DNA from: Candidatus Methylomirabilis lanthanidiphila
Lineage (GTDB): Bacteria; Methylomirabilota; Methylomirabilia; Methylomirabilales; Methylomirabilaceae
Assembly (NCBI GenBank): GCA_902196205.1
Contig: CABIKM010000022.1
Span: forward strand, 1-64,000
Reading direction: 5' to 3'
Length of the DNA: 64,000 bases
In this document: positions 17,963 through 24,976 of the stretch, piece by piece
Layout: each line of letters starts with the position of its first letter
Numbering within the stretch: the first letter of the stretch is position 1
The notes under the pieces: model-generated
Database searches by the model: none
The model's input: the letters and a program-made list of their open reading frames with translations, nothing else
What the model was told of the DNA's origin: nothing
Translations under genes and position numbers: made by a program

Positions 17963-17983
17963 ATATACGCTGATTCGTATATA
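17962..17983 (+). promoter_or_regulatory. Candidate ArsR-type operator
   Basis: A perfect inverted repeat, TATATACG-N6-CGTATATA, overlaps the -10/start region of the candidate promoter, 30 bases before the regulator's GTG. ArsR-family repressors bind AT-rich dyads of this size at this place, so autoregulation of the operon is the natural reading. Confidence 0.65.
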
Positions 17984-18012
17984 TGGATATAACATTATTC
18001 AAAGGAGGGGGC

Positions 18013-18393
18013 GTGAGTGCGCTGCGGAAGTTGGTGCCTGAGCGAGAATTTGCCGTGCTGGAACTGTCGGCGAAGTTTTTTCGGGGCTTGGGGGACCCGA
18101 CTCGACTGAAGATCCTGGACATCCTCCTTGACGGTGACAAAAGCGTCTCCGACCTCGTTCGTTTACTTGGCATCCAACAAGGTCGCGTGTCCAACCACCT
18201 CGCCTGCCTCAAATGGTGTGGCTATGTCACGACCACCACCAAGGGGCGGTACACGGTGTACTGCATCGCTGACAAGCGGGTGAAGCAAATCCTTCGGCTT
18301 TCGCGAGAGATGGTCGCCAAGAACGCCGAGCATCTCTGGGCCTGTACGCGCATCGCGGAAACCCAGAAACCACTGGCCACCACGGGTAAGTAA
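18013..18393 (+). CDS. ArsR-family transcriptional regulator of the mercury operon
   Basis: A winged helix-turn-helix protein: FRGLGDPTRLKILDILLDG, recognition helix QQGRVSNHLACLKWCGYV, and wing TTKGRYTVYCIAD. The cysteines C in HLACLKWCG and the later YC and AC are candidate metal ligands. I choose GTG at 18013 because AGGAGG precedes it by five bases. An upstream ATG at 17983 lies in the operator dyad. The gene ends two bases before merB, so it is the first gene of the operon, taking the place of the usual MerR. Confidence 0.88.
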   Translation: MSALRKLVPEREFAVLELSAKFFRGLGDPTRLKILDILLDGDKSVSDLVRLLGIQQGRVSNHLACLKWCGYVTTTTKGRYTVYCIADKRVKQILRLSREMVAKNAEHLWACTRIAETQKPLATTGK

Positions 18394-18395
18394 CA

Positions 18396-19013
18396 ATGTG
18401 GGGACAATTAACTGCAAATGAACGCCGTGCCCGGAAGGCGCTTCTGGATCTGATACTCACGACTGGTCGGGGTCCCAGTCTGAAGGCGCTCGCCTCACGC
18501 CTTGAGGTGTCCGAATCCGAGGCGGCCGAGCTTCTTTCTGCCCTTGAGCGGAAAGGATGCCTGGTTCGAGGCCAGCGTTCCAACATGATCAAGGCCGCCT
18601 ATCCGCTTTCGACCCGCCCAACTCAGCATTGCGTGGCACTGAATGGCACGGACCAGCAGTGCTACGCCCTGTGCGCCATTGACGCGCTGGGTGTCGCTCC
18701 GCTATTCGGCGTACCCGTCACGGTGAGCACAGCTTGCCAACAGTGTGGAAGGCCCATCAGTATCGTTCTGCGCCCTGGGGGGATCGTTTCTTGTGACCCA
18801 TCGACCACGGCGGTCTATGACAGCCTTCCCCAGCCGCTGACCAGGCGGTCGGTCGAGCTCAATCTCGCCAAGGTCCACTGACCATCAACCAACTTCTTCT
18901 GTACTGAAGAAGATGCGTATGAGTGGGGCAGGAAATATGGAAAGCTGGAGGGCAATGTCCTTTCAATGAGGGAGGCCTGGTTGAGGGCTCTTGAGATCTT
19001 TGGGCAATTCTAA
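18396..19013 (+). CDS. merB: Organomercurial lyase MerB with selenocysteine at the catalytic position (UGA at 18879-18881)
   Basis: MerB cleaves the carbon-mercury bond of organomercurials and releases Hg(II). The N-terminal third is a winged-helix-like domain. The core has AAYPLSTRPTQH, Cys93 and Asp96 in YALCAIDALGV (matching C96/D99 of the R831b enzyme) and VSTACQQCGRPI. At codon 162 the frame meets TGA and then continues for 43 codons (NFFCTEEDAYEW..., GKLEGNVLSMREAW) with the typical MerB C-terminus to TAA at 19011. Counting back from the conserved FF, the TGA aligns with catalytic Cys159. A seven-base-pair hairpin follows at SECIS distance. With Sec the protein has 205 residues, close to the usual 212. 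The alternative, a nonsense mutation, would remove an essential residue. Confidence 0.85.
18893..18912 (+). promoter_or_regulatory. Candidate SECIS hairpin for merB Sec162
   Basis: CTTCTTC and GAAGAAG pair perfectly (seven base pairs) around the loop TGTACT. The loop begins 19 bases after the TGA and has G at its second position, as described for bacterial SECIS elements. Confidence 0.7.
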
Positions 19014-19109: not shown

Positions 19110-19387
19110 ATGAAGTGTTGCGAGACCAACAAGGGGAAGGTCACCCAAGAAGAAAGGCGGACGAAGCTCTCGGGGTTGGCGGGGCTCGGCATTGTTGGGA
19201 CCATTCTGACCTGCGTGGCCTGCTTTACCCCGCTAGCGGTTACCCTGCTCGGGGTGATCGGGCTGGCGGATGGGCCGGGTATCTTGACTACGCGCTCTTC
19301 CCAGTCCTGGCCGTGTGTGTCGGGCTGGTGCTGCTCGGACTTGCCCGCCGCAGATCAGATGATGGCAAGCTGAAAGGAGAAGGCTGA
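19110..19387 (+). CDS. merF: Mercury transporter MerF-like, needs a -1 frameshift
   Basis: MerF is a small two-helix inner-membrane Hg(II) importer. A perfect AAGGAGG precedes ATG 19110. The first frame gives MKCCETNKGK, the helix with TCVACFTPLAVTLLGVIG and ADGPG. At about 19277 the meaningful reading moves back one base and continues YLDYALFPVLAVCVGLVLL to TGA 19385. This is the complete MerF plan, including the TC/AC cysteines of helix 1. The break lies in a GGGCCGGG run, so one missing G in the assembly, a true mutation or ribosomal slippage are all possible. The stop overlaps the next start (TGATG). Confidence 0.75.
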
Positions 19388-19623
19388 TGGCCAAAGAGCT
19401 CATCGTGTACAGTCAACCGGGGTGAGGGGCATGCCACCAGGAGAAAGAGTTTCTTTCTCAAAAGGCAGTTGCGTTCATCGATAAGAACATCCAGGAGGAC
19501 CACACGGCGCTGGAGGAGCTTCTAAAACTCGGCTACCGGGCCACACCCGTGACGGTGATCGACGGCGAAGTCGTTGTCGGTTTCGACCGCGGGAAGCTCG
19601 AACGGCTGCTCGGGTTGAGTTAA
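19387..19623 (+). CDS. Glutaredoxin-like selenoprotein, UxxC (UGA at 19423-19425)
   Basis: The 78-residue product opens with [21 protein letters not shown], where U is an in-frame TGA at codon 13. The glutaredoxin/NrdH redox motif CxxC is thus UxxC with Cys16. The cis-proline motif TPVTVI and [13 protein letters not shown] complete the thioredoxin fold. The frame is clean up to TAA 19621. The start overlaps the merF stop, so translation is coupled. A hairpin of SECIS geometry follows. A selenol at this site would have very high affinity for Hg(II), or could serve in reduction of Se-Hg-S adducts. The cellular role is inferred from the operon. Confidence 0.85.
19441..19459 (+). promoter_or_regulatory. 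Candidate SECIS hairpin for glutaredoxin Sec13
   Basis: GAGAAAG and CTTTCTC form seven base pairs around the loop AGTTT. The loop begins 23 bases after the TGA and has G at its second position. Confidence 0.65.
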
Positions 19624-19652
19624 GGCCATTGCGGTACGGTCTCGGAGGTGGA

Positions 19653-19937
19653 ATGGTCAAGGTCCATTGCAGTGGGTGCGGGCAGGAGATCGAGCTACCG
19701 ATGGAGACGCGCTCAGGCGACATCATAGCCTGCCCCAACTGAGCGGGTCTCTCGCTCCGGGTGGGCGAGGAGGAGGGCAACTGGTCAGCCGTGGTCCTCA
19801 AGACCGCAAGCTGCGCCGTGGGTGACGAGGTCGTCATCCTCCCAGATGACGTCAAACCCGGTAACCTCGTTGAGTGCCATGGTATCCAGCAACGGGTCAC
19901 CTATGAATACGGCGCATACGCGCTCGAGAAGGTGTGA
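19653..19937 (+). CDS. Zinc-ribbon-like selenoprotein, CPNU (UGA at 19740-19742)
   Basis: GGAGGTGGA directly precedes ATG 19653. The product begins MVKVHCSGCGQEIELP and continues to IIACPN-U-AGLSLRV, with TGA at codon 30 where a CPNC knuckle would be expected (CxxC...CxxU). A second part has KTASCAVGDEVVILPDD, NLVECHG and YEYGAYALEKV. Total length is 94 residues with no other stop. Replacing one of four metal ligands by Sec is unusual and suggests a mercury chaperone or sensor and not a structural zinc site. The exact function is unknown to me. The following gene begins 12 bases later. Confidence 0.75.
19751..19769 (+). promoter_or_regulatory. Candidate SECIS hairpin for zinc-ribbon Sec30
   Basis: CTCGCTC pairs with GGGCGAG (seven pairs, one G-U) around the loop CGGGT. 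The loop starts 16 bases after the TGA and carries G at its second position. Confidence 0.6.
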
Positions 19938-19949
19938 GGGGCCAAGTAC

Positions 19950-20381
19950 ATGAGTGTATCAGATGTGAAGCCCGGATTCTTGGGTGTCGTGGCGGCAGGC
20001 GTTTCGTCTTTGTGCTGCCTCCTGCCGCTCATGGTCATTGTTTTAGGGCTCGGTAGCGGCGCATTCATGATGACCACTATGCAGTACCGGGCGATCTTCA
20101 TCCCGGCGGGGATCGTCGGGGTGGCCATCGGTTGGCTCCTATATCTTCGCGAGCGCAAACGCTGCAGTTCCCTTGCTTGCCGGGTGGTGGGTGGAACACT
20201 GAACCTCTCCCTCCTCCTGCTCGCGACGGTCCTGGTTGCTGCGGCGGTCGCCCTCGACCAATTCCCCAACGTCACAGCCGACCTGCTGATGCGCGCCACA
20301 TCCGGCACCTCGGATACGGCGCCGGCGTCTGCTTCCACAGCCGATCACTCGGCCATGGGACACGAAGGAGACATGAAATGA
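19950..20381 (+). CDS. merT: MerT-like mercuric ion transporter
   Basis: Three hydrophobic helices, an adjacent cysteine pair in the first (GVSSLCCLLPLMVIVLGLGSG) and a second cysteine pair in the cytoplasmic loop (RKRCSSLACR) reproduce the MerT plan, in which Hg(II) passes from helix-1 cysteines to the loop cysteines. The C-terminus is extended and ends in a His/Met-rich tail (DHSAMGHEGDMK) that may bind metal. Cysteines are standard here, with no UGA. The end overlaps the start of the MerP-like gene by four bases. Confidence 0.78.
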   Translation: MSVSDVKPGFLGVVAAGVSSLCCLLPLMVIVLGLGSGAFMMTTMQYRAIFIPAGIVGVAIGWLLYLRERKRCSSLACRVVGGTLNLSLLLLATVLVAAAVALDQFPNVTADLLMRATSGTSDTAPASASTADHSAMGHEGDMK

Positions 20382-20686
20382 GGGCAAGGCTTCAGTGGGA
20401 TCGCCGCACCTTCCTTACATGGGGAATAGGCGCATCGCTCCTCCTGGCTTTCAGGCAAACCGCCGCCTCACGCACCGCTGTTGCTTTTCTGCAGATTGAC
20501 GGCATGACGTGAGGAACCTGACCCCTTGTGGTCAAGAAGGCCCTGGAGGGGCTGACGGCCGTCAAGAGCGCCGAGGTGAGTTTCAAGGAGAAACTCGCCC
20601 GCGTAACCTACGAGATGGGCGTCGTGACGATCGAGCAGATGATCGAGGCCGTGAAGGGTGTGGGGTTTCGCGCCACGCCCCAATGA
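20378..20686 (+). CDS. merP: MerP-like periplasmic heavy-metal-binding diselenide protein, UxxU (UGA at 20510-20512 and 20519-20521)
   Basis: The 102-residue product begins with a twin-arginine-like signal (WDRRTFLTW, hydrophobic ASLLLAF, cleavage near TAAS) followed by one HMA domain: AFLQIDGMT-U-GT-U-PLVVKKALEGL, VKSAEVSFKEKLARVTYE, TIEQMIEAVKGVGF. Both cysteines of the canonical GMTCxxC site are TGA (codons 45 and 48). Both hydrophobic and glycine landmarks of HMA domains are intact up to the TGA stop at 20684. Two successive small hairpins follow. Export of a Sec protein by the Tat route would fit cofactor-like handling, but it could also be a Sec-pathway signal. Confidence 0.82.
20525..20536 (+). 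promoter_or_regulatory. Candidate SECIS hairpin for merP Sec45
   Basis: CTTG and CAAG pair around TGGT, with the loop starting 17 bases after the first TGA and G at the second position. A competing pairing is TGACC with GGTCA (20519-20534). The stem is short, so support is weaker than for the other genes. Confidence 0.45.
20539..20553 (+). promoter_or_regulatory. Candidate SECIS hairpin for merP Sec48
   Basis: GGCCC and GGGCT pair around TGGAG, with the loop starting 23 bases after the second TGA and G at the second position. Confidence 0.45.
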
Positions 20687-20699
20687 AAAGGAGGAAATA

Positions 20700-21209
20700 A
20701 TGGCTCCGACAGCAAAGCTTCCGCTCCTGCCGACCACCGTGGTCGGCTCGTATTCGGTCCCGGACTGGTATCCGGTGTTGCAAGAGGGGGTGCAACGCGG
20801 CGCGTTGGCTCCCTCGGCCTTTGGTGATGCGAAGGAGGTCGCCGCCCTGGGCGCCATCAAGGATCAAGAGACGGCTGACATCGACCTCATCAGCGACGGG
20901 GAGCTGTTCCGTCGCGACAACAACCGCTTCGGCCCTCCCAATGCGATGATTAACTACTTCTCGGCGAGAATCCCGGGTTTTTCGTCTGAGCTTCGGGACC
21001 GAAGCGGCATTACGCCCCTAGACCCCTCGGCGTCGCTACCGGCGCCAGTGGCGACAGGGCCGCTCCGCCCAGCGCCGCTGGGTCTGGTCGAGGAGCTGCG
21101 ATTCCTCCGCCGGTACAGCTTCGGCCCGGTCAAGATCGCCATGACCGAGCCCCACATGTTTGCCAGGATCGTGTGGGATGAGCAGTACGGCAGCCGGCGG
21201 GTAAACTGA
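20700..21209 (+). pseudogene. MetE-like methyltransferase, 5' fragment
   Basis: AAAGGAGG precedes ATG 20700. The product matches the N-terminal half of short cobalamin-independent methionine synthase II-like proteins: LLPTTVVGSYSVPDWYPVL, DLISDGELFRRDN and FGPVKIAMTEPHMFARIVWDEQYGSRR. Similarity ends at about 21195, where a decayed transaldolase fragment on the other strand begins, so only about 168 of an expected 370 residues remain. The gene follows merP by 13 bases and was probably the last gene of the operon before a deletion. The catalytic zinc-binding C-terminal part is missing. Confidence 0.7.
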
Positions 21210-23557: not shown

Positions 23558-24976
23558 TTACGCAAAGCGCATGAGGAACTGGAGGATCCCCTTGAGCGGC
23601 CCCTTGAAGAGCTTTTCCCGATAGTAAAGATCGGCGGCCCGGCGGACGCCTTCAGCCAGCGTGGGATACACATGGATGGTCTGAGAGAGCGCACCGACTG
23701 GGAGCCCCTTCCGCATCGCAAGGACCACCTCCTGGATGAGATCACCGGCCTGCGGACCCATGATGTGAGCCCCCACGATCTTCCCCTTCGGCGTGCACAC
23801 CAGCTTCGTCAGGCCCACCGCCTCCCCATCGCAGAGCGCCCGATCCAAATCTCCGAAGCTGTGCCGATAGACCTTCACGTGTCCGAACTGTTCTCTGGCG
23901 TCGACCTCGGTTAACCCGACCCTGGCCACTTCGGGATCGGTGAAAGTGCACCAGGGGACCACTCGGTAGTTCGCCTTGCTTGTCAACGGGAACAACGCAT
24001 TGCGGACGACCAGACGCGCCTGGTATTCGGCCACGTGGGTGAAGAGGAGCTTCCCCGTGACGTCGCCACTAGCCCAGATGTTACGAGCCGTGGTCCGCAA
24101 GGTATCGTCCACGACAACCCCCTTGCCGTCATACCTCACCCCTGCCGCCTCGAGATTCAACCCCTCCACATTTGGCCGCCTGCCGGTCGCCAGGAAGATT
24201 TCCTCGGCCCGGAACGTCTTCGCTGTACCGGTGCACTCCCCGTGGACGATCTTCTCGGCCCCGTCCTTCTCAATGCGGAATGCCTTGGTGCATGTGTGGA
24301 TGTCGATCCCTTCGGCCCGAAAGATGGCCTCCAGAGACTGAGCGATCTCCTGGTCCTCCCGGGGCAGAATCTGCCCGACCACCTCCAACACGGTGACCCG
24401 GACGCCGAAGCGGGCGAAGAGTTGAGCGAACTCGAGCCCGATGGGCCCTCCCCCTAAGATCACGACCGATCGAGGGAGACGGGAAAGCGCTAAGGCGCTC
24501 ACGTGATCAAGGAAGCCAGTTTGCTCCAAGCCCTCGATCGGGGGAACAGCCGTCCTGGAGCCGGTGGCGATGACGACCTTCTTCACCTTGATCCGCTGCG
24601 CCCCAACCTGTAGCTCCGTCGGGGAGAGGAAGCTCGCCTGGTTGGAAAAGAGGGTGACGCCTAGCCCCCTGAACCGCTCAGGGGAGTCATGCTTCCCCAC
24701 CTGCTGCTGAACCAGTCGCATCCGGTCCATGACCTTTGCAAAGTCAAAAGAGACCTCGGGCGTATTCAGACCAAAATCGGCCGCGCGGCGTAAGAGATGC
24801 AGGACCTTCGCAGAGCGGATGAGGGCCTTGGACGGCACGCAGCCGGTGTAGAGGCACTCTCCCCCAAGACGGTCCCGCTCGATTAGGGCCACTTTCGCTC
24901 CAAGGGAGGCAGCGCCGGCAGAGGTTACAAGCCCGGCCGTGCCACCGCCTATCACGGCGAGATCAAAGGTGTCCAT
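23558..24976 (-). CDS. FAD-dependent disulfide oxidoreductase, mercuric-reductase-like, of the arsenosugar cluster
   Basis: The FAD motif is LAVIGGGTAGLVTSAGAASLG, the redox disulfide is Cys41/Cys46 in GGECLYTGCVPSKA, the NAD(P) motif is VVILGGGPIGLEFAQL, and the second FAD motif is IWASGDVTG. The C-terminal base is in TIHVYPTLAEGV. It lacks both the N-terminal HMA domain and the C-terminal vicinal cysteines of true MerA, so mercuric reduction is doubtful. Similar proteins are last in arsenosugar gene sets. It begins four bases after the glycosyltransferase gene. Confidence 0.85.
   Translation of the reverse strand: MDTFDLAVIGGGTAGLVTSAGAASLGAKVALIERDRLGGECLYTGCVPSKALIRSAKVLHLLRRAADFGLNTPEVSFDFAKVMDRMRLVQQQVGKHDSPERFRGLGVTLFSNQASFLSPTELQVGAQRIKVKKVVIATGSRTAVPPIEGLEQTGFLDHVSALALSRLPRSVVILGGGPIGLEFAQLFARFGVRVTVLEVVGQILPREDQEIAQSLEAIFRAEGIDIHTCTKAFRIEKDGAEKIVHGECTGTAKTFRAEEIFLATGRRPNVEGLNLEAAGVRYDGKGVVVDDTLRTTARNIWASGDVTGKLLFTHVAEYQARLVVRNALFPLTSKANYRVVPWCTFTDPEVARVGLTEVDAREQFGHVKVYRHSFGDLDRALCDGEAVGLTKLVCTPKGKIVGAHIMGPQAGDLIQEVVLAMRKGLPVGALSQTIHVYPTLAEGVRRAADLYYREKLFKGPLKGILQFLMRFA

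Follow-up and report, generated by a model that had tools for sequence, protein, structure and literature searches.

A predicted selenoprotein with tandem LysW-like zinc ribbons in a mer-type gene cluster of Candidatus Methylomirabilis lanthanidiphila

The gene described here (hereafter the ribbon gene) is located at 19653-19937 on the forward strand of the window, the 64,000-nt stretch of contig CABIKM010000022.1 of Candidatus Methylomirabilis lanthanidiphila that was analysed. Inspection of the frame placed its ATG at 19653, with GGAGG at 19644-19648 just 5' of it. The product has 94 residues (MVKVHCSGCGQEIELPMETRSGDIIACPNUAGLSLRVGEEEGNWSAVVLKTASCAVGDEVVILPDDVKPGNLVECHGIQQRVTYEYGAYALEKV), with a CxxC motif at residues 6-9 and CPN-UGA at codon 30 (UGA at 19740-19742), and another 64 codons precede an ordinary UGA stop. 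The reading frame was found as the original prediction had described it, with ATG, CxxC, CPNU and in-frame UGA all present. As annotated here, the protein consists of a ribbon 1 with the ligands C6, C9, C27 and U30 and a degenerate ribbon 2 in which C54 and C75 are left. Because standard gene calling stops at UGA, this gene is easily missed.

The gene order around it is ArsR, MerB-like, MerF (frameshifted), UxxC glutaredoxin, ribbon gene, MerT-like and UxxU MerP-like, all on the forward strand. The first gene of the cluster (17983-18393) encodes an ArsR/SmtB-family metalloregulator (NCBIfam NF033788: 76.5 bits, cut-off 55) and is found at the same place in relatives. It is followed by a gene (18396-18881) for a 161-aa MerB/SaoL-like organomercurial lyase homolog (Pfam MerB: 65.9 bits, cut-off 27; PDB MerB 1s6l: E = 1.4e-7), which keeps CAID/CxxD (MerB Cys96/Asp99) and ends before the C-terminal Cys159 segment. 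MerB-like proteins lacking this segment were common to the genus of the window (also L023, L033 and L035), whereas other families of the order keep it. The MerF-like transporter gene (19110-19387; Pfam MerF: 33.7 bits, cut-off 24.3) is interrupted near 19268 by a frameshift of one base; positions 4-32 of the MerF profile match one reading frame and positions 32-59 the following one. Since merF is in one frame in relatives (L023, L033, L035 and L036), this frameshift, seen in the window only, reflects an assembly error or a recent lesion. A glutaredoxin-like selenoprotein with a UxxC motif (19387-19623, UGA at 19423-19425; Pfam Glutaredoxin: 44.9 bits) comes next, and a strong hairpin follows its UGA (z −2.9).

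Downstream of the ribbon gene, a MerT-like membrane protein (19950-20381) stayed below the cut-offs of both Pfam MerT (27.5 bits, cut-off 32.9) and NCBIfam MerT (34 bits), and its synteny is conserved. The MerP-like HMA-domain selenoprotein (20378-20686) has a UxxU motif with UGA at 20510-20512 and 20519-20521 (NF041115: 86.4 bits, cut-off 95; Pfam HMA: 52 bits, cut-off 24.8). In the nearly complete genome, no MerA was found above the cut-off (best: 410 bits vs 454), and the three best candidates have no C-terminal Cys pair. The best of them, a MerA-like flavoprotein, is encoded in the window on the reverse strand (23558-24976). Directly after merP, at 20700-21209, there is a truncated fragment (169 aa) of a MetE-like cobalamin-independent methionine synthase, and the same holds for L033 and L036; it might conceivably have to do with methyl groups derived from organomercury.

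The alignment of 45 full-length relatives, in which the frame was kept far more than chance would allow, showed UGA at codon 30 in 32 and Cys in 13. Homologs with Cys at this position, whose absence was to have spoken against the original prediction, therefore exist. A second UGA was found at the ligand position Cys9 in 19 of the 45, so the earlier statement of one Sec ligand holds for the protein of the window and not for many of its relatives. At least nine changes among the combined Sec, Cys and ribbon-2 states were required by the family tree. Past UGA-30, dN/dS was 0.11-0.18 (window against six relatives), with the reverse pattern in the other frames, and the codons 3' of this UGA are under purifying selection. 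Additionally, the genome encodes the Sec machinery (SelA, SelB, SelD and tRNA-Sec, all four above cut-offs), and its SelD gene itself contains an in-frame UGA. General reassignment of UGA was ruled out, as this codon terminates the ribbon gene and its neighbours, and tRNA-Sec and SelB are present in the genome. Considering this machinery and the SECIS-type hairpin described below, we regard the gene as a genuine selenoprotein gene with predicted Sec insertion at codon 30. The adjoining merF, frameshifted by one base, indicates that the assembly or strain is not lesion-free, and the UGA might accordingly be read as a true stop or an assembly error in a pseudogene or a gene for a 29-residue peptide. 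However, this explanation is extremely improbable given the same-codon UGA across many independent assemblies, the Cys in the remaining relatives, a SECIS found mainly with UGA, the selection past the UGA and the full Sec machinery.

A bacterial SECIS-type hairpin was identified at 19750-19770 (forward strand), with a stem formed by 19750-19757 and 19763-19770 and the loop CGGGU at 19758-19762. The stem begins 7-8 nt after UGA-30 and the loop about 15-16 nt after it; the hairpin start previously given as 16 bases after the UGA thus fits the loop and not the stem. Folding of the window sequence alone after UGA-30 gave a free energy no better than that of shuffled sequences (z −0.13). Because single-sequence folding yielded no signal, Sec members were compared with Cys homologs in a fixed register, and the case for a SECIS rests on this comparison. 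A stem of at least 5 bp after codon 30 was present in 30 of 32 Sec members vs 2 of 13 Cys members (Fisher p = 5e-7). Across the family, the stem has 5-10 bp and closes a five-base loop, which is CGGGU or CGGGC in 27 Sec members; a G is present in the apical loop. Compensatory changes were seen at three stem pairs, for example, from G-C to C-G at columns 15/27. Double-changed cells numbered 16, compared with 5.7 in shuffles, and none of 500 shuffles reached as high a value, controls that leave shared ancestry and coding constraint in place. Sliding the register reduced both pairing and covariation.

A hairpin after UGA-9, with at least 6 bp and the loop GGYC, occurred in 14 of 19 U9 members and 1 of 25 C9 members, in a register chosen on the U9 set. 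The two Cys members with a 5-bp stem after codon 30, L019 and L078, branch within groups of Sec members in the tree, a position that suggests, without being proof, that they once had Sec there. Cys codons preceding SECIS-like hairpins inside Sec clades were observed at codon 9 of L017 and at codon 30 of L019 and L078, likely recent Sec-to-Cys changes with a relic SECIS.

The two halves of the protein are homologous to each other (residues 50-94 against the first half by hhalign: 97% probability, E = 1e-11). Their closest solved relatives by sequence were LysW proteins, 5k2m for half 1 (E = 0.009) and 3vpb for half 2 (E = 6e-4), and a profile search with Sec treated as Cys, the check proposed at the outset, reached the Pfam LysW model (PF21344) at 27.0 bits, exactly at the cut-off of 27. 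AlphaFold2 modelled the Sec form (pLDDT 90.5) and a Cys form (pLDDT 89.3) as all-beta double ribbons, with no domain other than the two ribbons and no DNA-binding domain. In structure comparisons, the five best entries for the Sec-form model were all LysW (Z 6.0-7.6; next entry 3.7), and the Cys-form model gave a similar result (LysW Z 6.0-7.7 vs 4.0 for the next); Z values below 8 are modest, but the LysW entries are well separated from all others and fit what the sequences show. The family, which the original prediction could not name, can therefore be named by fold as a tandem LysW-like ribbon. FmdB, HypA, RPB12 and other ribbon families were ruled out, all being below cut-off in Pfam and NCBIfam, and the dual-CXXC family NF041197 gave no match. 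Among the NCBIfam models, none was passed by the ribbon protein.

Sec in ribbon 1 replaces the second Cys of CxxC, in one or both knuckles (C6-x2-C/U9 ... C27-x2-U30). By analogy with rubredoxin-type knuckles, the second Cys would be the more exposed position. All-Cys members have two complete four-ligand ribbons; in this Cys lineage, ribbon 2 has four ligands in the form CxxC...CC, or HC in place of CC in Tectomicrobia, whereas only C54 and C75 are left in the lineage of the window. This comparison indicates that the lineage of the window gained Sec in ribbon 1 and lost half of the ligands of ribbon 2. A protein of zinc-ribbon type whose fourth ligand position is taken by Sec had been expected, and this was borne out, with the additions that the ribbon is LysW-like and lies in a mer-type operon. 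The four-ligand ribbon is not kept throughout the family, since position 9 is Arg in one member (L050/L020).

The ribbon protein was found in 22 of 60 relatives searched and, by profile search, in 36 of 81 genomes of the phylum. A scan of GTDB genomes yielded 33 named loci, for the most part from Methylomirabilota/NC10 and Rokubacteria. The rest were single records labelled Deltaproteobacteria/Myxococcota, Elusimicrobia, Nitrospirae and Acidobacteria, and two from Tectomicrobia; some of these off-phylum records are metagenome bins, of which a few may be misbinned. L083, for example, carries an Elusimicrobia label and is nearly identical to L082 (Rokubacteria). No plasmid-borne copies of the gene were found by tblastn. 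Of 42 distinct loci, 40 encode a UxxC glutaredoxin no more than about 510 nt upstream of the ribbon gene. One or more MerB-, MerF-, MerT- or MerP-like genes lie within 5 kb in about 36 of the 42, and several of the exceptions are short contigs. The co-occurrence with merB that had been suggested as a check was also seen: a MerB-like gene was located just upstream in 20 of these loci. In the deepest Cys member, L084 (Tectomicrobia), a full-length MerB (110 bits, cut-off 27) and a regulator of the MerR family adjoin MerT, a Sec glutaredoxin, the all-Cys ribbon and a UxxU MerP. Among the most distant members, L081 lies near a MerR-family gene and L085 has no recognisable mer genes.

Each half of the protein has the same zinc-ribbon fold as the LysW/ArgW carrier (PF21344 and NF041070; PDB 3vpb, 3wwl and 5k2m), which differs in having one ribbon, not two in tandem, and no Sec at ligand positions. 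Against the NCBIfam LysW/ArgW model NF041070, the ribbon protein reached 47.2 bits, below the cut-off of 75. The EDWGE-type C-terminal glutamate tail, which we take to be the amino-acid-carrying part of LysW/ArgW, was absent from all 45 relatives, and the ribbon protein ends in GAYALEKV. Moreover, the genes around the ribbon gene in the window and in relatives are of mer type, not those of lysine/arginine biosynthesis (LysX/ArgX, LysZ and LysY). A LysW carrier function was ruled out by the missing tail and the wrong gene neighbours.

In structural zinc ribbons, ligands other than Cys and His are exceptional. Sec as a ribbon ligand is as unusual as was originally supposed, since the sole ribbon precedent found was a pair of marine GOS reads encoding an FmdB-family ribbon (TIGR02605) with predicted Sec at ligand cysteines (PMC2398784). 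This nearest precedent is likewise a small CxxC ribbon; it is, however, a single ribbon of a different family with a proposed redox role, and the ribbon protein scored 16.5 bits against TIGR02605 (cut-off 31.3). The UxxU MerP-like protein of NF041115, a neighbour in the same operon, likewise has Sec at metal-ligand positions, but on an HMA fold, not a zinc ribbon. A Sec-assisted organometallic (SAO) system, with several selenoproteins clustered around the MerB-like SaoL, is cited in a 2026 review (PMC13188914). The SaoL model NF040728 was the best NCBIfam match of the MerB-like protein of the window, at 79.8 bits and below the cut-off of 140. SaoC, SaoT, SaoP, SaoB and SaoX had no match among the genes near the ribbon gene. 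To our knowledge, and as far as the table of the review goes, the SAO system has no listed LysW-like member. Like the classical mer operon (MerR, MerT, MerP, MerF, MerB and MerA), the window clusters MerB-, MerF-, MerT- and MerP-like genes; unlike it, it has an ArsR-type regulator, a UxxU MerP, an added UxxC glutaredoxin and Sec ribbon, and no MerA above the cut-off. The deep-branching L084 shares the MerR-family regulator and the full MerB with the classical operon.

The 119 prokaryotic selenoprotein families and subfamilies of the review include none that is LysW-like (PMC13188914), and none of the papers searched pairs LysW with selenocysteine, or zinc ribbon with selenocysteine and selenoprotein. 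As UxxU MerP, Sec glutaredoxins and the MerB-like SaoL are already known kinds, the novelty is placed in the ribbon, which appears to be a new family of selenoproteins whose fold only very rarely carries Sec.

We favour, at a probability of roughly 0.55, the reading that the ribbon selenoprotein acts in the cytosol within a mer-type pathway, as a trap and relay for soft metals, and represents an apparently undescribed family. MerT/MerF and the UxxU MerP, rich in Sec, would admit Hg(II) or organomercury, which would then be bound by exposed selenolates of ribbon 1, either in place of zinc or in competition with it. From there, mercury would be exchanged with the UxxC glutaredoxin encoded next to the ribbon gene and with the MerB-like lyase, and the C54/C75 remnant of ribbon 2 could give a linear two-thiolate (two-coordinate) mercury site. 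Because the genome has no MerA above the cut-off, retention and transfer of mercury may be more important here than in other systems. Sequence evidence covers Sec insertion, family, fold, Sec at ligand positions and operon; from these, we infer the trap and relay role, and from the gene neighbours only, the specificity for mercury. As the MerT and UxxU MerP fell below strict model cut-offs, the pathway may instead act on a different soft metal or organometal. Beyond this, a new class of metal site may tentatively be envisaged, at somewhat less than even odds: a Sec-converted ribbon as a dedicated mercury trap that would pass mercury between a Sec glutaredoxin and an organomercurial lyase. Most soluble parts of such a mer pathway would be selenoproteins, and it could run without MerA.

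The main rival to the trap and relay reading is that of a redox partner, in which the CxxU pairs (C27/U30; often C6/U9) would form selenenyl-sulfide bonds and pass electrons to or from the UxxC glutaredoxin, for example, freeing the glutaredoxin or MerB from mercury or repairing oxidised thiols; zinc, if bound, would be structural or released as part of the switch. CxxU is a common, classic motif of redox selenoproteins, and the ribbon gene is strictly adjacent to the glutaredoxin gene. Furthermore, the 2026 review considers most uncharacterised selenoproteins likely to be redox proteins (PMC13188914), and a redox role of CxxU was proposed for the FmdB reads (PMC2398784). The Sec positions, however, align with LysW zinc-ligand positions and not with a thioredoxin-type fold, the rest of the operon consists of metal transport and organomercury genes, and the complete ribbons of all-Cys members are as expected of metal sites. 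Ligand-position Sec and the operon favour metal, and the CxxU pairs and the glutaredoxin neighbour fit redox; both readings are compatible with this evidence, and we regard the redox role as the less likely of the two. A docking or regulatory module, which would join the MerB-like lyase and the glutaredoxin or sense metal for operon control with Sec tuning the sensing, appears improbable. LysW does act by docking to partner enzymes, regulators are common among small zinc ribbons and the gene order is conserved, yet the clusters have separate ArsR or MerR regulators and nothing is attached to the two ribbons, neither a DNA-binding nor any other domain.

The repeated, often double, occurrence of Sec among ribbon ligands beside mercury genes offers a natural test of direct selenium-mercury binding in the cell, and the Cys and Sec forms of the ribbon in the same operon provide a ready-made comparison. 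With the ribbon, glutaredoxin and MerP all predicted selenoproteins, the cluster suggests a mercury pathway rich in Sec in Methylomirabilota; among the members of this phylum are methane oxidisers and subsurface bacteria of relevance to methylmercury turnover.

Some further candidate selenoprotein genes were noted. A second, different UxxU MerP-like selenoprotein is encoded near the cluster in several relatives (L022:10905-11210, L033:3901-4203 and L043:4801-5091), and in-frame UGA occurs in the MerT-like proteins of L040, L043 and L082, possibly representing a Sec MerT. In the same genome outside the window, a glutaredoxin-like gene (G000:C29:59655-59873, L031) contains two in-frame TGA codons and resembles the GUXX-star domain.
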